Below, in pieces: positions 13,036-20,353 of a stretch of DNA of 44,404 nt; the stretch's first letter is position 1, and each line of letters opens with the position of its first letter. The stretch is from an uncultured Acidaminococcus sp. (GTDB taxonomy: Bacteria > Bacillota > Negativicutes > Acidaminococcales > Acidaminococcaceae). The notes beneath the pieces were generated by a model, which ran no database searches, was not told the origin of the DNA, and worked only from the letters and a program-made list of their open reading frames with translations. The stretch covers positions 1 through 44,404 of the forward strand of contig CADBQR010000086.1 in NCBI GenBank assembly GCA_902796945.1, in the 5' to 3' direction. The position numbers and the translations under genes are program-made.

Positions 13036-13962
13036 TTAGGAACCGCCAAGGAGCTGATGGAAACGCTGTCTCAGTGCCCTGGCAATGGATTCCAGGCGTT
13101 CTTCCCTGAAACGGGAACGCAGGCAGGCAAGACCGATGGACCGTCTGGCCAGGGGCGTAGAAAGTGGAAAATAATGGACACGCTGGCTTTTTTGTAAAGT
13201 GGGGAGCAGCGTGCTGGGGAGGAAGGCCACCCCGTAATTATGGCTGACCAGGGAATAGACAGTATCCAGGCTGTCCGATTCATATACCGCCTGGGGCTGG
13301 AATCCGTAATCGTTGCAGATGGCCGTTGCCAGGTCATGGAACTTCAATCCCCTGCGCAGCATGACAAATGGCAGGGCACGAAACGCGTACAGGTCCAGTT
13401 TCTTTCCGTCCCAGGCGGTACGGGCGATGCGAAGGGCTTCTTCGTTGGCGGAAGGAATTACAAAATACAGGGATTCCTCATAAATGGAATGCAGCCTGAT
13501 ATCCGGATGGCGGACCGGTTCCGGAAAAACGCCCAGATCCAGCCGGTGGGAAAGAAGTTGTTCTTCCAATAATTCGGAAGAACCTTCTACCAGACGGATC
13601 CGGTAATCCGGCACCAGGGTACGGAGAACATCCAGCAATGGGACAAGGACATATTTCCCGTAGAATTGGGACGCACCGATGCTCAGTTCCTTTTCAGTGT
13701 CTTCACTGAATTTTTTCATATCCTGCTCCAGGGCGTGAATGTCCTCCAGGATTCCCCGGGCCCGTTTCATAAAGAGTACTCCGGCGGCTGTCAATTCGAC
13801 CCGCTGGGTATCCCGCTGAAAAAGACGGCAGCCCAGGCGCTTTTCCATGCGGCGAATGTATTGGCTCAGGGCGGGCTGGCTGACCCGCAGACGGACGGCT
13901 GCCTGGGAAAAGCTCTTGGTTTCTGCGATGGCAATGACGTATTCCAATTCCCGACTGTCCAT
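13036..13962 (-). CDS. LysR-family regulator divergent from aconitase
   Basis: A 308-residue LysR regulator with the N-terminal helix-turn-helix (KSFSQAAVRLRVSQPALSQY) and a two-lobed effector domain. It is a clear paralogue of the LysR gene at 16099-17082: both begin MDSR and share RTAWDG, the ESxxxDTxYSLVxHNYGVxFL stretch and other segments. The start is set by AAGGAGG 6 nt upstream. It is divergent from the aconitase gene across 115 bp containing two dyads at positions expected for LysR binding relative to the aconitase start. One dyad covers its own -10 (TATAAT, 13986-13991, minus strand), so autorepression is likely. The same operator recurs at 18636 and 18834. Confidence 0.9.
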   Translation of the reverse strand: MDSRELEYVIAIAETKSFSQAAVRLRVSQPALSQYIRRMEKRLGCRLFQRDTQRVELTAAGVLFMKRARGILEDIHALEQDMKKFSEDTEKELSIGASQFYGKYVLVPLLDVLRTLVPDYRIRLVEGSSELLEEQLLSHRLDLGVFPEPVRHPDIRLHSIYEESLYFVIPSANEEALRIARTAWDGKKLDLYAFRALPFVMLRRGLKFHDLATAICNDYGFQPQAVYESDSLDTVYSLVSHNYGVAFLPSTLLPTLQKSQRVHYFPLSTPLARRSIGLACLRSRFREERLESIARALRQRFHQLLGGS

Positions 13963-13973
13963 CCCGCACCTCC

Positions 13974-14040
13974 TTATAATACTATATTATAAAACTATCA
14001 TAAGCAAATATTATGCTAAATGCAAGACCCGTGGTAGGAT
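13974..14040 (+). promoter_or_regulatory. Aconitase promoter with LysR-type operators
   Basis: An operator TTATA-N9-TATAA (13974-13992) is centred 52 bp before an extended -10 TGG-TAGGAT (14035-14040). With a start near 14047 this is about -64, the usual recognition site of LysR activators. A second dyad CATAA-N7-TTATG (13999-14015) is centred near -40, the usual activation site, and overlaps the -35 (TATGCT, 14012-14017). Confidence 0.65.
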
Positions 14041-14077
14041 AATGGGAGAAAATCCAGGGTGAAAGGGGTTATTTTTT

Positions 14078-16024
14078 ATGAAGGAAAATGTAGCACAAAA
14101 GCTGATCCGCCGCCATTTGGCAACACCTGCCGAACTGGTGCCGGGAACGGAAATCCGGCTGACCGTTGATCATACGCTGACCCATGATATCAACGCCGTC
14201 ATGGCTTATCTGGCTTTTGAAGCGCTTGACGTTCCCCGTGTCAAAACGAAACTGTCCGTCAGTTATATTGACCATAACCTGCTCCAGATCGATAACAAGA
14301 CACCGGATGACCATATCTATCTGCAGACGCTGGCCAAAAAATATGGCCTGGTCCTTTCCAAGGCGGGAAATGGAATCTGCCATACCCTGCATTGCAGCCG
14401 GTTTGGCAAACCCGGCGCGATGCTGCTTGGCGGTGACAGCCATACACCGAGCTGCGGGGCCCTGGGGATGCTCGCCATCGGGGTGGGCGGGATGGACATT
14501 GCCACGGCACTGGCCGGCTTCCCTTATGTCCTGAAGATGCCGAAAATCGTCCGTGTCCATTTAAGGAATCATTTAAGACCGGGCGTGGCAGCCAAGGATA
14601 TCGTCCTTGAAATGCTTCGCCGGGTTTCGGTCAAGGGCGGTACGGGCAAGATCTTTGAGTACGTGGGCGAAGGAGCTGCCTCGCTTTCCGTACCGGAACG
14701 CATGACCATCACCAATATGGGCGCCGAAATGAATGCCACGACGTCAGTTTTCCCTGCCGACGAAGTCGTCCGTAAGTACCTGAAAGCACAGGGTCGTGAA
14801 GCTGATTTTACGGAAATCCTGCCGGATGAAGGCTGCACGTATGATGAAGAAATGGAAATCGACCTGGCGGCGCTTGAACCCCTGGTGGCTCTGCCGCACC
14901 TGCCGGATCATGTTGTAACGGTCCGGGAAGCCCCGAAGGTTCCTGTCAATCAGGTCTTTATTGGCAGCTGCACGAACGGCTCCTATTCTGATTTCCGCAA
15001 AGCGGCGGCTGTGCTGAAGGGCCATCAGGTAGCCGAAGGCACAAGCCTTGTCTGCGGGATCAGCTCCCGCCAGATTTATTTGAAACTGATGGAGGATGGC
15101 GTCATTGCCGACCTCATGAATGCCGGTGCCCGTGTCCTGGAACTCGCCTGCGGACCTTGCTGCGGGATTGGGTGCGCCCCGAATACGAAGGGTGTGTCCG
15201 TGCGTACGTCCAACCGGAACTTCAAGGGGCGCAGCAGCACCCCCGATGCATCCCTGTGCCTGGTAAGTCCGGAAGTTGCTGCCGCAACGGCCGTCAAGGG
15301 CGTTCTTGCCACACCGGATGAAGTGATGGATGATGTGTCCGTCCTTGCAGGGATCCATGAACCGGAAACCTATCCCATCAACGATAACCTGTTCCTGCCA
15401 CCAGCGCCGGAAGGGAACGCTGTGGAAATCGTCCGCGGTCCGAACATCAAGCCGCTGCCGGTGGCTGATCCGCCTGAAGACGACCTCACGGCCTGCGTCA
15501 GCCTGAAAGCCCGCGATAACGTATCGACGGATGACATTACGCCGGCAAGTGCCCAGTTCTCTTCCATGCGTTCCAATATGCCGGCCATGGCACAGTATGC
15601 TTTCTGCCGCTATGATCCGGAATTTGCCAAACGCGCCCAGGCCATGAAAAAGAGCTTCATTATCGGCGGGGCCAACTATGGCCAGGGTTCCTCCCGTGAA
15701 CACGCCGCCATTACCCCGATGTACCTTGGCGTCAAGATGATCATCACGAAGGGGTTTGCCCGGATCCATAAGAACAACCTGATCAACCACGGAATCATTC
15801 CGGCTGTCTTTGTCAATCCGGCCGATTATGACAAGATCGACCAGGAAGATGAACTGGCCATTCGTGGATTGCGTCAGCAGCTGAAGGACCGGCTCTTCAC
15901 GGTGGAAGACAAGACGAAACACGTTACCTTCCAGGCCAAACTTGAAGTGAGCGACCTGGAGGCGGATATCCTGCTGGCTGGCGGGAAATTGCGGTATACG
16001 AAGAAAATGCTGGAGGAAAACTGA
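14078..16024 (+). CDS. acnA: Aconitate hydratase (aconitase), monomeric short type
   Basis: A 648-residue aconitase interconverting citrate and isocitrate through a [4Fe-4S] cluster. The three cluster cysteines are visible: Cys298 in GSCTNGS, and Cys358 and Cys361 in ACGPCCGIGCAP. The C-terminal swivel domain contains GGANYGQGSSREHAA, with the substrate-binding serine and arginine. The protein is shorter than AcnA/AcnB of enterobacteria and corresponds to the compact 'putative aconitase' branch. It would channel citrate to isocitrate and, with an isocitrate dehydrogenase elsewhere, to 2-oxoglutarate for glutamate dehydrogenase. It is transcribed alone from a promoter with LysR operators, has the ribosome-binding site GAAAGGGG, and ends in a strong terminator. 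The symbol denotes the activity, not the branch. Confidence 0.93.
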   Translation: MKENVAQKLIRRHLATPAELVPGTEIRLTVDHTLTHDINAVMAYLAFEALDVPRVKTKLSVSYIDHNLLQIDNKTPDDHIYLQTLAKKYGLVLSKAGNGICHTLHCSRFGKPGAMLLGGDSHTPSCGALGMLAIGVGGMDIATALAGFPYVLKMPKIVRVHLRNHLRPGVAAKDIVLEMLRRVSVKGGTGKIFEYVGEGAASLSVPERMTITNMGAEMNATTSVFPADEVVRKYLKAQGREADFTEILPDEGCTYDEEMEIDLAALEPLVALPHLPDHVVTVREAPKVPVNQVFIGSCTNGSYSDFRKAAAVLKGHQVAEGTSLVCGISSRQIYLKLMEDGVIADLMNAGARVLELACGPCCGIGCAPNTKGVSVRTSNRNFKGRSSTPDASLCLVSPEVAAATAVKGVLATPDEVMDDVSVLAGIHEPETYPINDNLFLPPAPEGNAVEIVRGPNIKPLPVADPPEDDLTACVSLKARDNVSTDDITPASAQFSSMRSNMPAMAQYAFCRYDPEFAKRAQAMKKSFIIGGANYGQGSSREHAAITPMYLGVKMIITKGFARIHKNNLINHGIIPAVFVNPADYDKIDQEDELAIRGLRQQLKDRLFTVEDKTKHVTFQAKLEVSDLEADILLAGGKLRYTKKMLEEN

Positions 16025-16046
16025 TTCCCATTCCTCTTATAAGGCT

Positions 16047-16080
16047 AAAAGCTGTCGCAGGATGCTGCGGCAGCTTTTTT
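16047..16080 (+). terminator. Terminator of aconitase
   Basis: AAAAGCTGTCGCAG and CTGCGGCAGCTTTT pair around GATG with one T-G position, followed by further Ts. Confidence 0.92.
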
Positions 16081-16098
16081 CGTCCCGGCCCATACCGG

Positions 16099-17082
16099 TT
16101 ATTTATTTTTCTGCATGGCTTCAAAGGTGATGTTCTGTTTTGCCAGATAGTGTTCAATGGCATTGAAGCTTTCCCCAATCTGTTTCCGCAAAGCCTTGGC
16201 AACGGCCCGCATGGCACTGTCCTGCCGTTTACCACGGCGGTAGAAAATTCCCCAGTTCAGGCAGGAACTGTCATCTTCCACTGGAAAGAAGAGGACCCGG
16301 TTATTGGTCTTATCCACGTTCTGCAATAAGGTCAGGGACAGGAATCCGACACCGTAGTTGTGGTTAACCAGGGAATACAGGGTATCCTGGGTTTCTGATT
16401 CGCAGATCGGTTTCGGCTGGAAACCAAATTCCTCGCAAATATGGACCATATGATCCCTCAGTTTGGCACTCCGGGTCAGGAGGACAAACGGAAAATCACG
16501 GAATACCCGCAAATCGACACGATGGCCATCCCAGGCTGTCCTTAACAGTTCCATTGCTTTTTTGTTGTCCTGGCATACGGCAAAGTAAAGTGGTTCCCGG
16601 TAGAGCAGGATGGAGGCCGTTTCGTTCTGCAGCGGCGGCATGGGAAAAATTCCCAGTGTGATCCGTCCTTCCAGGATCTGTTTTTCCAGTAAGGTCGATA
16701 CGCCGTCGATGAATGTGATGTTCGTATGCGGGTAAAGCTGCTGGAGGGTGGAAAGGATTGTCGGAAGCAGGAACTTGCTGTAGGATGTGGAAAGACCGAT
16801 ACGGATTTCATGGCTACCATCCTCTTTTACCTGGGAAAGACGGTATTCCATGCGGTCCATCTGGGCCAGGACTTTTTGTGCCTCCTCAGCATAGATTTTT
16901 CCAAAAGGAGTGAGCATGACCTGGGATTTATCCCTGTAAAAAAGTTCGCGCCCCAGCCGTTTCTCCAGACGATGGATGTATTGACTGAGGGAAGGCTGGC
17001 TGATGTAGAGCTTTTCGGCGGCTTTGGAAAAGCTGCCCATTTCATCGATGACAAGTACGTATTGAAGATCCCGGCTGTCCAT
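16099..17082 (-). CDS. LysR-family regulator divergent from the racemase gene
   Basis: A 327-residue LysR regulator, paralogous to the one at 13036-13962 through most of its length. The helix-turn-helix contains GSFSKAAEKLYISQPSLSQY. The C-terminus extends about 20 residues beyond its paralogue and ends in a charged tail. The ribosome-binding site is AGGAAG, 7 nt before the ATG. It diverges from the alanine racemase family gene, so control of that gene is the simplest guess. Just upstream lies CTATA-N9-TATTA (17094-17112), which differs by two bases from the TTATA-N9-TATAA operator at the aconitase promoter, as might be expected for the operator of a paralogue. Confidence 0.9.
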   Translation of the reverse strand: MDSRDLQYVLVIDEMGSFSKAAEKLYISQPSLSQYIHRLEKRLGRELFYRDKSQVMLTPFGKIYAEEAQKVLAQMDRMEYRLSQVKEDGSHEIRIGLSTSYSKFLLPTILSTLQQLYPHTNITFIDGVSTLLEKQILEGRITLGIFPMPPLQNETASILLYREPLYFAVCQDNKKAMELLRTAWDGHRVDLRVFRDFPFVLLTRSAKLRDHMVHICEEFGFQPKPICESETQDTLYSLVNHNYGVGFLSLTLLQNVDKTNNRVLFFPVEDDSSCLNWGIFYRRGKRQDSAMRAVAKALRKQIGESFNAIEHYLAKQNITFEAMQKNK

Positions 17083-17093
17083 GGTTTCACTTC

Positions 17094-17112
17094 CTATAGT
17101 TTTAAATTATTA
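17094..17112. promoter_or_regulatory. Possible operator in the LysR-racemase divergent region
   Basis: CTATA-N9-TATTA resembles the three TTATA-N9-TATAA sites elsewhere in the window. It lies immediately upstream of the LysR gene's ribosome-binding site. No matching -10 occurs 52 bp to its right, so it is more likely involved in autoregulation than in activating the racemase gene. Confidence 0.35.
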
Positions 17113-17360
17113 ATATAATAATAACGGTATCCTATGGATAAAGCAAGGAAATCGAATGGAAATAACGGGGCTGTACCCTGGAAAAATCCTGAAAAAAGAA
17201 ACGGCGCTTCCCAAACCGGGCAACCGGGATTCCATTGACGAAAGGAACCATGGGAATGATAGCGATGGCAGAAATACTGCCCCTGAAAGCGAAAAGGCCC
17301 GGGTTTATCCAGGCGTGCGCTGCCGGGAGTTGTTATGGGCCTGCAAAGGAGGATTGCGTA

Positions 17361-18578
17361 ATGGATAAAGTGAATCCTGCTTATTATACCAGCCGCCTGG
17401 AAATCAATTTGGATACAATCGGAGAGAACGTGGCCAGGATCCGGAACTGTCTTTCTGGCATGGGAATCATTCCCGTGATCAAAAGCAACGCCTATGGCTT
17501 TGGTACGGTTGCCATTGCCCGCTATCTCGTTGAGGAATGCGGCCTTGATTCCATCGCAGTGGCACGCCTTTATGAAGCCTGTCAGATCCTGGAAGCCGGT
17601 ATTCACCCCCGTATGTTGATGCTGCTTGGCCCGCTGCCAGATGCTTCCGTTCCCCTCGCTGTGGAAAAAAACATTGAAGTTCCCCTGTTCCGCTCCCACA
17701 CGGCGGCTCTTCTCAGTGAGACGGTCCGCCGCCTGGGGAAAGAGAAGGTGCCTGTGCAGCTTGCCATTGAAACCGGTATGAACCGCATTGGTGTCCGGCC
17801 AGGAAAGGAACTGGAAGCGCTGCTGCAGCAGGTAAAACAGCTGGGCAATCTTGAAATTGACGGGGTCTTTACCCATTTCGCAACGGCGGATGATGTCAAT
17901 CAGGGGAAGGGAAATGCTTTTACCCGCACCCAGTTCCGGCGCTTTTGTGAGGCCCTTTCCCAAGTGCGGCGCGGCGGATTTTCTCCCCGGTTTATCCACT
18001 GCTGCAATTCAGGGGCTTCCGTATGGCTCCGGGAAGCCGCTTCCGTCTGTACCCATATACGAACGGGGAGTCTTTTGCTGGGCTATGCCGCCGTTCAGGA
18101 CGATTGGAACCCCATTGGCGTGGAGGAGCCGGCTTCCTGGAAAACAACCATTGTCAACCTGAGGGAAATCCAGCCAGGGGAGAGTGTGGGGTACGACCGG
18201 GCCTTCTGTCCGGACCGACCGGCACGGGTTGCTGTCATTGCCGTTGGTTATGGGGACGGCTATTCACGGCGCTTTGCTGTAAACGGAGCGCCTGCCCTTG
18301 TCCGCGGCCGGCGCGTACCTTTCGTCGGAACCTGTATGGACATGAGTTTTCTCGATGTCAGTGGCGTGGAATGTGAAATCGGGGACGAAGTGACCCTGTT
18401 TGGGGATGACGGCACAGGTCACCGGATTTCCGGTCTGGAAATCGGGCATCTGATGGGGGAGACGCGCCTGGCCATGTTTACCCATATTACTGAGCGGGTG
18501 GCCCGCGTTTATTTCCAAACGGAAAACGATCAGAAGACCGATCCGGCGGCTGTGGGAAATTGCCTTCCCTGGAAATGA
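17361..18578 (+). CDS. alr: Alanine racemase family PLP enzyme
   Basis: A 405-residue fold-type III PLP enzyme. The lysine that binds PLP is Lys41 in KSNAYGFG, where most alanine racemases have KANAYG. The second catalytic residue is the tyrosine of VGYDRAF (Tyr278). CMDMSFLDVS near the C-terminus is also typical. The start at 17361 is set by AAAGGAGG 7 nt upstream; earlier in-frame ATGs lack such a site. It interconverts L- and D-alanine, or acts as a broader amino-acid racemase; the serine in KSNAYG and the dedicated divergent LysR gene hint at a catabolic rather than cell-wall role. The gene stands alone, with two candidate small RNAs downstream. Confidence 0.88.
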   Translation: MDKVNPAYYTSRLEINLDTIGENVARIRNCLSGMGIIPVIKSNAYGFGTVAIARYLVEECGLDSIAVARLYEACQILEAGIHPRMLMLLGPLPDASVPLAVEKNIEVPLFRSHTAALLSETVRRLGKEKVPVQLAIETGMNRIGVRPGKELEALLQQVKQLGNLEIDGVFTHFATADDVNQGKGNAFTRTQFRRFCEALSQVRRGGFSPRFIHCCNSGASVWLREAASVCTHIRTGSLLLGYAAVQDDWNPIGVEEPASWKTTIVNLREIQPGESVGYDRAFCPDRPARVAVIAVGYGDGYSRRFAVNGAPALVRGRRVPFVGTCMDMSFLDVSGVECEIGDEVTLFGDDGTGHRISGLEIGHLMGETRLAMFTHITERVARVYFQTENDQKTDPAAVGNCLPWK

Positions 18579-18634
18579 TGGTTCCCTCTGCTGGAAGAAG
18601 CAGGGATCTTCGGTGCTTTTTATACAATGGACTG

Positions 18635-18702
18635 CTTATAGTGTCTGCCTATAAGAGAATAATAAGAAGATATTATACAAGCGATGGTCCCTATGGTAGT
18701 AT
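18635..18702 (+). promoter_or_regulatory. Promoter 1 of the racemase-downstream region, with LysR-type operators
   Basis: CTTATAG-N7-CTATAAG (18635-18655) contains TTATA-N9-TATAA centred at 18645. ATAATA-N6-TATTAT follows (18659-18676). A -35 TATACA (18674-18679), 17-bp spacer and extended -10 TGG-TAGTAT (18697-18702) complete the promoter. Spacing from operator centre to -10 is 52 bp, identical to the aconitase promoter. No protein gene follows. Confidence 0.6.
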
Positions 18703-18708
18703 ACAGAT

Positions 18709-18814
18709 ATGGACAGGCACACCTGTCCGAAGTAGAACAGGCTACTCCTAGAAAAACATCCATAAAGCGAAAGAACCGGATCCGTTTGCGGCGGCTTCGG
18801 TCCTTTTGCTTTTC
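18709..18814 (+). ncRNA. Candidate small RNA 1 (about 106 nt)
   Basis: Predicted to start about 7 nt after the -10 of the promoter just upstream. It opens with a perfect hairpin GGACAGG-CACA-CCTGTCC (18711-18728), then AGTAG-AACAGG-CTACT (18731-18746), a short single-stranded A-rich link, and a long terminator-like hairpin. The last pairs AAAGCGAAAG (18764-18773) and CCGGA with TTCGG and CTTTTGCTTT (18803-18812) with one mismatch, and ends in TTTT. There is no start codon with a ribosome-binding site. A 5' hairpin at the start site and a 3' terminator are usual in stable bacterial small RNAs. I cannot assign it to a known family. Confidence 0.42.
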
Positions 18815-18833
18815 CGGGCATTGTTTTTCTTTT

Positions 18834-18900
18834 TTATAGTTTAAAACTATAAGGATATAATCATCATGTATTATACAGCACATGATGACCGTGGTATGAT
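18834..18900 (+). promoter_or_regulatory. Promoter 2 of the racemase-downstream region, with LysR-type operators
   Basis: TTATAGTTTAAAACTATAA (18834-18852) is a perfect 19-nt dyad of the form TTATA-N9-TATAA centred at 18843. ATAAT-N8-ATTAT follows (18857-18874). A -35 TATACA (18872-18877), 17 bp, and extended -10 TGG-TATGAT (18895-18900). Operator-to-minus-10 distance is again 52 bp. An extra perfect dyad TCATCATGT-N10-ACATGATGA (18861-18888) encloses the -35 and may bind another protein. Confidence 0.62.
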
Positions 18901-18906
18901 AAGGAT

Positions 18907-19105
18907 GCATCGGAAACCGATCGCCGATACATTTTCTTGAGTCCCCCTCAAGAAGCTTAAATTCATCTTACCCTGAGGAATCATGGATTCCTTCTTACCC
19001 ACCCTGGATGGATTTATTCCTTTGCTCCCCGTCCGGAAAACCGCCGGGAGCACTCCACAGGAAAATGGAACCTGCTGCCCTGAACGGGCGCGGCAGGTTC
19101 TTTTT
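18907..19105 (+). ncRNA. Candidate small RNA 2 (about 199 nt), C-rich loops
   Basis: Predicted to start about 7 nt after TATGAT. Hairpins in order: ATCGG-AAA-CCGAT (18909-18921); TTCTTGAG-TCCCC-CTCAAGAA (18934-18954), whose loop is UCCCC; GGAATC-ATG-GATTCC (18977-18991); GCTCCC...GGGAGC (19024-19051); and the terminator at 19068-19105. The second and fourth hairpins are perfect or nearly so. The linkers repeat TCTTACCC (18966-18973 and 18993-19000). C-rich loops are a known feature of Gram-positive small RNAs that bind Shine-Dalgarno sequences. An 11-codon frame from 18905 lacks a ribosome-binding site on this transcript. Start and function are inferred. Confidence 0.48.
19068..19105 (+). terminator. 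Terminator of candidate small RNA 2
   Basis: GAACCTGC (19068-19075) pairs with GCAGGTTC (19093-19100), with an inner GCCC/GGGC stem, followed by TTTTT. No protein gene lies upstream that it could serve: the racemase gene ends 490 bp earlier, with another terminator-like hairpin between. Confidence 0.88.
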
Positions 19106-19387
19106 CTCTATATGGAACCAGGCCGTCGGCAGAACGTTTTTAGTCCACGAAAATGACGTTTTCCTCAGGGAATCCGAAAAGAGGGGGCCCTTGCTTTCCA
19201 CTGCTGCATAAAAATAGAGCAATTTGGAAATCAGGTATTGACTTTCCAAGCGTTTTGGATGAAGATTATTCTGTATCAATTGACGGTTTATCCGGCATCT
19301 CTTCCGGAGGTCTTCCTCATTGCCTGCCGTGTGGCTGCAGGAGGCGGGGCCCATCGGACCTTGCCGGTTGAATCGATAGGAGGAACC

Positions 19388-20353
19388 ATGATGAAATTTT
19401 TCCATAAAGTGGCAGCACTGGTCCTTGCTGCGTCCTGTTTCCTGCCTTTTTCGGCCTTGGCAGCCGATAAATCAGCGGCAGTCCAGAAAATCATTGATTC
19501 CAGCAGCCGGCTGGGGCAGGAAAAGTATTTCCAGTACACCGTAAAGGGGTACCTGTCCACAACCCTTGGACGCGGGGATTATGAACTGAAAGGGGAAGCC
19601 ATTCAGCACCCGGTACTGAAATCAAAGGCAGTCGGACAGGTGACACTCAATACCATCGGGGGCAGCGCAGCCATTACGCCGATTTCTTTCTATGTGATGG
19701 AAGATAGCAAAAACTATGTCGTTTACGCAAAAAAAGGCGATTCCTGGGTCAAGAGAACAATGCCCCGGGAGAAGGAAAATGACCCGGATAAGCTGTCGGA
19801 TATCCTGACAAGGGCCATCCAGACGGCCCATGTCCTTTCTGACGAAAAAGAAAGGGAAACCATTCTTTTCACGATTGACCCGACACCAGCGGCCGTCGAT
19901 GCCCAGAAAGATGTTTTTCTCAGTACCGCCAAAAAAGAGGATGCTACTTTTACAAAAGAGGATGAAAAAAGGATCCTGGGTTCCCTGCGGGAACAGAATT
20001 ACCTGGTTACCATTGATAAGAAATCGAAACGGCCCCTGGCTTACGAAGCGGATTGTACGCCTTTTGCCAAAGCGGTGATGGGAATCATTTCCAGTAAGGT
20101 CACCGAAGGCGCCAAAATGAATGAATTCCAGAAGCAGTTCCTGAAGAGCATCAGCGATTCGGCCAGGATGCAGTTCAGCATGAACCTGACCTACAACAAG
20201 GGAAAGGACATTCTACTTCCCGACGAGGCAAAAAGTGCACAGGAGGAAGAGGAAAAAAAGGAATCCATAACAGCAGGGCAGAAAAATGGGGTGTCCGCGT
20301 CCAGAGAAAGGGAAAAACCGGATGCGTTGCTGAAAGCTTCTCCTGAAAAATAA
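19388..20353 (+). CDS. Exported protein of unknown function
   Basis: A 321-residue protein with a Sec signal peptide: MMKFFHK, a hydrophobic core and a likely cleavage site after SALAA (near residue 26). No lipobox is present, so it is secreted or periplasmic. The mature part alternates short strands and charged turns (YFQYTVKGYLSTTL, YELKGEAI, SFYVMEDSKNYVVYAKKG), as in the LolA/LppX-like fold, but this is only a resemblance. The C-terminus is a charged, low-complexity tail rich in Glu and Lys. AGGAGG lies 4 nt before the first ATG and 7 nt before the second (19391), which may be the true start. It has its own terminator. I do not recognise the family. Confidence 0.72.
   Translation: MMKFFHKVAALVLAASCFLPFSALAADKSAAVQKIIDSSSRLGQEKYFQYTVKGYLSTTLGRGDYELKGEAIQHPVLKSKAVGQVTLNTIGGSAAITPISFYVMEDSKNYVVYAKKGDSWVKRTMPREKENDPDKLSDILTRAIQTAHVLSDEKERETILFTIDPTPAAVDAQKDVFLSTAKKEDATFTKEDEKRILGSLREQNYLVTIDKKSKRPLAYEADCTPFAKAVMGIISSKVTEGAKMNEFQKQFLKSISDSARMQFSMNLTYNKGKDILLPDEAKSAQEEEEKKESITAGQKNGVSASREREKPDALLKASPEK

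Follow-up and report, generated by a model that had tools for sequence, protein, structure and literature searches.

Introduction

LysR-type activators that adjoin the gene of a small RNA (sRNA) are known from Escherichia coli, in the pairs oxyR-oxyS and gcvA-gcvB; the repeats lie at -66, -44 and -35 in oxyS and at -65 and -43 in gcvB (PMC5002191). In Bacillus, aconitase is regulated by CcpC, a LysR-type protein whose ATAA/TTAT boxes are found at -66 and -27 (PMC8514465), and the C-rich sRNAs FsrA and RoxS of Bacillus subtilis have targets in central metabolism, citB among those of FsrA (PMC8216469). The gut genus Acidaminococcus ferments glutamate, citrate and trans-aconitate, all of which its type species is known to use (PMC3035267). 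A literature search turned up no publication on sRNAs of this genus.

Here we analyze a stretch of 44,404 nucleotides from an uncultured Acidaminococcus sp. (assembly GCA_902796945.1, contig CADBQR010000086.1), hereafter referred to as the window. It contains three promoters of one architecture, namely that of aconitase (P1) and two others further downstream (P2 and P3). We consider it likely, with appreciable room for doubt, that P2 and P3 each drive one of two tandem sRNA genes and are extended -10 promoters activated by a LysR protein, probably LysR2, a paralogue of the LysR protein encoded next to aconitase (LysR1).

Results

Three promoters share one operator-promoter module

The sequence TTATA-N9-TATAA occurs at 13974-13992, 18636-18654 and 18834-18852, and, as stated in the original prediction, nowhere else in the window. 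In dinucleotide-preserving shuffles, the mean was 0.01 copies per window, and three copies were reached in none of 100. The whole genome (2.17 Mb in 153 contigs) contains one additional copy, on contig C119. P1, P2 and P3 constitute a common module of 67 bp that aligns without gaps. Dyad 1 is centered at position 10 of this module and dyad 2 at position 34, i.e., 24 bp further on; the TG of the extended -10 element occupies positions 59-60 and the hexamer positions 62-67 (Table 1). The predicted spacing of 52 bp between the center of dyad 1 and the -10 element is indeed identical in all three promoters, provided that it is measured to the first base of the hexamer rather than to the TG of the extended element. 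In each promoter, a TATTAT sequence also ends 20 bp before the hexamer. The intervening ATAA/TTAT dyad, likewise predicted for all three, is exact in P1 and P2 but differs by one base in P3 (ATCA). With transcription starts placed 7 nt downstream of the -10 element, as was done throughout for dyad positions and RNA 5' ends, the dyads are centered at about -64 and -40. This arrangement, a recognition dyad near -65 and an activation site near -40 to -35, bears out the geometry of a LysR activator that had been proposed.

Pairwise, the three promoters are identical at 41-46 of 72 bases. Their upstream and downstream flanks, by contrast, resemble one another only at the level of chance, with 15-25 identities in 60-100 bases; thus, we conclude that the three promoters are not a recent duplication. 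The partial operator at the promoter of LysR2 itself is accompanied by neither a second dyad nor a -10 element on the + strand.

Table 1. Features of the locus, in coordinates of the window
Feature	Position	Strand	Description
LysR1, divergent from aconitase	13036..13962	-	Pfam HTH_1, LysR_substrate; helix SQPALS (Ala31)
P1, aconitase operator-promoter	13974..14040	+	ATAA-N7-TTAT centered at 13983, second centered at 14007; extended -10 TGGTAGGAT
Aconitate hydratase	14078..16024	+	NCBIfam PRK07229, 860.6 bits (cut-off 612)
LysR2, paralogue of LysR1	16099..17082	-	Helix SQPSLS (Ser31); proposed regulator of RNA1 and RNA2
Partial operator at LysR2's own promoter	17097..17115		CTATAGTTTTAAATTATTA
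P2	18636..18702	+	ATAG-N7-CTAT, second dyad ATAA-N7-TTAT; extended -10 TGGTAGTAT
RNA1, predicted, ~105 nt	18709..18815	+	Two small hairpins and a terminator-like hairpin
P3	18834..18900	+	ATAG-N7-CTAT, second dyad ATCA-N7-TTAT; extended -10 TGGTATGAT
RNA2, predicted, ~200 nt	18907..19110	+	Ends in a G+C-rich stem and T run
Conserved hairpin in RNA2	18934..18954	+	UUCUUGAG-UCCCC-CUCAAGAA, loop exposed

Two paralogous LysR proteins

LysR1 and LysR2 both possess the HTH_1 and LysR_substrate domains, and are therefore LysR-type proteins. LysR2 shares 42% identity with LysR1 and 55% with its counterpart in A. intestini; a search for LysR2 recovered it from the window genome and from A. intestini only, all other matches being LysR1. 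Residue 31, in the recognition helix, is alanine in the LysR1 proteins and serine in the LysR2 proteins. Neither protein can be equated with CcpC, as they score 67.6 and 83.4 bits against the CcpC equivalog (NCBIfam NF058504), whose cut-off is 400, and as the second site is not at -27, although the boxes are alike. Against the OxyR equivalog of NCBIfam (cut-off 329), LysR1 scores 126.8 bits and LysR2 104.5 bits. Searches among solved structures and folds retrieved the general LysR family, with OxyR, BenM and an itaconate regulator (7w06) among the nearest; these matches point to no inducer for either protein.

The surroundings of these genes vary within the genus. In the other members examined (L031-L036), a lactonase-like gene and a MatC/CitMHS-like transporter come after aconitase, and in some of them PrpF-like and second aconitase-like genes are nearby; in the window, LysR2 and alr take their place. 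The alr gene, within 17083-18635, separates LysR2 from the RNA genes, unlike in A. intestini. Together with the partial operator beside LysR2, this placement of alr appears from the sequence to be a local rearrangement relative to A. intestini.

Conservation of the module across genomes

Nine Acidaminococcus genomes were compared, including those of A. intestini DSM 21505 (G004) and A. provencensis (G008). In seven of them, LysR1 and aconitase are divergent, and all seven of these aconitase-bearing genomes carry the 67-bp module between the two genes; the other two lack aconitase, LysR1 and the operator alike. Over 11 aligned promoters, 20 of 72 columns are invariant. When up to 3 mismatches are permitted, the full pattern is found at 1 to 5 places in each aconitase-bearing genome (n = 7) and at none in the other two, while the reversed pattern, used as a control, gives 0 or 1 match per strand. 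The scan had been proposed with the proviso that many random hits in coding regions would count against the prediction; where the surroundings of the extra matches were examined, each match lies in a promoter from which another LysR gene diverges, and the prediction withstands this test. The composite pattern thus marks LysR promoters and not random coding DNA.

In A. provencensis, an operator of the LysR1 type is located upstream of a 2-hydroxycarboxylate transporter-like gene (G008:C8:14535-14600; L047, L158), which suggests that the aconitase regulator might also control citrate uptake in this species. With zero mismatches, the ATAG form was present at just three places among 300 genomes of the class, namely P2, P3 and the promoter of A. 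intestini RNA-a (see below). A composite ATAG-N7-CTAT operator with the same geometry was also observed in another Negativicutes family (L203-L206; G109, G245, G186, G167), divergent from its target; there the LysR protein has an SQPTVT helix, and the operator is LysR-divergent in 3 of 3 loci examined.

Two predicted small RNAs and the A. intestini loci

The original prediction that P2 and P3 drive two non-protein transcripts agrees with our analysis, in that no plausible protein gene lies between either promoter and the terminators. RNA1 is predicted to fold with -41.2 kcal/mol (z = -4.3 relative to shuffles) and RNA2 with -78.5 kcal/mol (z = -5.4). At gathering score, an Rfam scan of the window produced no family match. 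Matches at a relaxed threshold were judged to be due to chance or to terminator resemblance; among these, a weak match of the end of RNA2 (19042-19102) to the DnaX frameshift element, with 28.9 bits against a threshold of 35, probably reflects a resemblance of its hairpin.

A DNA search with the whole stretch 18560-19130 against 40 relatives returned only the match to itself; it was the operator that led to relatives. In A. intestini, copies of the module flank LysR2 on either side, at C30:15884 and C30:17101. Each is followed by a non-coding stretch with a strong terminator hairpin (RNA-a and RNA-b, the latter after C30:17101) and then by a convergent gene. The -10 elements of the two copies are at L031:9946-9951 and L031:11163-11168, and the predicted RNAs are about 125 nt long. 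In both species, therefore, the RNA loci have a promoter module of their own and a terminator-like hairpin, as expected of sRNA genes, and the frames at the predicted 5' ends, of 8-11 codons, are not conserved.

RNA2 and RNA-b have a 13-mer in common, TGAGTCCCCCTCA, of which either genome contains just one copy, 27-30 nt from the predicted start. Both contain a hairpin with a 9-bp stem and a UCCCC loop, located in RNA-b near L031 11205-11225. Between the two RNAs, the stem has undergone two compensatory changes and a further one that yields G-U; a stem of at least 7 pairs arose at that position in only 3 of 20,000 shuffles of the RNA-b sequence. By sequence alone, the similarity of RNA2 and RNA-b is modest (25 of 1000 shuffles), and no significant sequence similarity was detected between RNA1 and RNA-a.

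These comparisons bear on whether the stretches could instead belong to downstream genes as leaders or attenuators, or else be short decaying transcripts with no function. In the window, a lipoprotein-like gene does start at 19391, about 280 nt past the RNA2 terminator. Both A. intestini RNAs, however, run into convergent genes, i.e., they have no downstream gene to lead and are not leaders; in addition, the loop of the hairpin is kept and its stem is compensated. We consider this alternative improbable. Taken together, the shared module, its A. intestini copies with terminated non-coding stretches, and the kept UCCCC hairpin indicate that these are probably LysR-controlled sRNA genes.

Assignment of the promoters to LysR1 and LysR2

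Dyad 1 is ATAA-N7-TTAT in 9 of 9 operators of the aconitase type (the seven aconitase promoters of the genus, that of a citrate-transporter-like gene in A. provencensis, and that of aconitase in Anaerosphaera), and ATAG-N7-CTAT in 4 of 4 RNA promoters, two from the window and two from A. intestini. The base pair that distinguishes the two forms is at positions 6 and 14 of the dyad. This split, 9/0 versus 0/4, has a Fisher p of 0.0014 when relatedness is ignored; the A. provencensis citS-like site and that of A. intestini RNA-b have other mismatches to the full pattern. LysR2 and the RNA sites are both present in two of the nine genus genomes and both absent from the other seven. With only two species that have LysR2 and the sRNAs, this co-occurrence may reflect a single ancestral event. 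Outside the genus, residue 31 and the half-site base show a trend (p of about 0.10 by protein) that is not significant by cluster, and a rule relating the two in the wider family was accordingly rejected.

The original prediction assigned all three promoters to the LysR protein encoded at 13036, that is, LysR1. For P1, the conserved divergence of LysR1 from aconitase in seven genomes agrees with this assignment, and makes LysR1 the candidate regulator of aconitase. A single LysR1 regulon of the citrate type, comprising aconitase and both RNAs, is the main rival to our explanation. It would account for the identical geometry of P1, P2 and P3, for the second dyad of P2, which has the ATAA-N7-TTAT form seen at P1, and for the presence of aconitase and the RNAs at one locus. 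Nevertheless, we regard it as unlikely, given that the half-sites of aconitase and RNA promoters differ consistently, that the RNA sites were not found in five other species that have LysR1 without LysR2, and that RNA-b in A. intestini is divergent from LysR2, across the operator, just as aconitase is from LysR1. For these reasons, we do not uphold the earlier assignment of P2 and P3, for which LysR2 is a better candidate. The ATAA form of the second dyad of P2 implies, all the same, that LysR1 could bind there as well, and the retention of only a partial operator upstream of LysR2 in the window is a point against our explanation.

The genome encodes about 46 LysR proteins (46 HTH_1 matches), and another of these, for example one similar to OxyR, might conceivably drive P2 and P3. 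The E. coli OxyR repeat at oxyS is in fact ATAG-N7-CTAT, at -66/-44/-35 (PMC5002191). This too seems to us a poor prospect, as LysR2 is encoded close to these sites in two species, and divergently from the RNA in A. intestini, and no further LysR gene was observed next to the RNA sites.

Discussion

The mechanism that we propose is as follows. A LysR protein would bind the recognition dyad at about -64 and the activation dyad at about -40, and would recruit RNA polymerase to a promoter that has no recognizable -35 box. P1 would be the aconitase promoter under the adjacent LysR1, whose inducer is probably a tricarboxylate, i.e., citrate or aconitate; P2 and P3 would most likely be under LysR2. 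We propose that the Ala31 helix of LysR1 reads ATAA-N7-TTAT and the Ser31 helix of LysR2 reads ATAG-N7-CTAT. RNA2 would act in trans through its exposed UCCCC loop, which would pair with Shine-Dalgarno sequences, possibly with the aid of Hfq, a protein encoded by each of the nine genus genomes.

A bolder and more doubtful proposal is that a duplicated aconitase regulator exchanged Ala31 for Ser, that its operator changed at one symmetric base pair from ATAA to ATAG, and that the new pair acquired a private regulon made up solely of sRNAs, one of which has a C-rich loop that, through Shine-Dalgarno pairing, tunes citrate and aconitate metabolism. The locus would then be a case of transcription factor paralogues whose DNA preferences were separated by a single residue and a single base pair, and the sRNA branch would attach to central carbon metabolism. 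Target prediction for the UCCCC loop over a few ribosome sites ranked the A. intestini aconitase 2 of 15 and gave -9.1 kcal/mol for that of the window; we set this result aside as too weak. In A. intestini, the GTG start of a CrcB-like gene (L031 16938-17303; G004:C30:22937-23302) is preceded by GAGGGGGA, which is complementary over 8 nt, without mismatch, to the sRNA loop sequence UCCCCCUC; this gene is a possible target.

The Acidaminococcus locus resembles CcpC/citB of Bacillus and Listeria, in that a LysR regulator of aconitase is associated with ATAA/TTAT boxes; in Acidaminococcus, the aconitase promoters have ATAA-N7-TTAT at dyad 1 as well as at dyad 2. It differs in the position of the second site, at about -40 rather than -27, and in the divergent gene arrangement. 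With RoxS and FsrA, RNA2 shares an exposed C-rich loop of a kind that could pair with Shine-Dalgarno sequences, but there is no sequence family match, and the regulators are different. In oxyR-oxyS and gcvA-gcvB, too, a LysR activator adjoins an sRNA, as is predicted here. The repeats at oxyS (-66/-44) and gcvB (-65/-43) match the dyad positions of about -64 and -40; the OxyR repeat has the same half-sites as dyad 1 of P2 and P3; and the divergence of LysR2 and RNA-b in A. intestini reproduces the arrangement of both E. coli pairs. Unlike in those pairs, the window has two RNAs in tandem, with alr between them and the LysR gene, the RNAs have no Rfam match, and the regulator is a paralogue of the aconitase regulator. 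The kind of system, a LysR protein with an sRNA, is thus already known, and the predicted Acidaminococcus RNAs would be new members of it; they would add to oxyR-oxyS and gcvA-gcvB a LysR-sRNA neighbor pair from outside the Proteobacteria.
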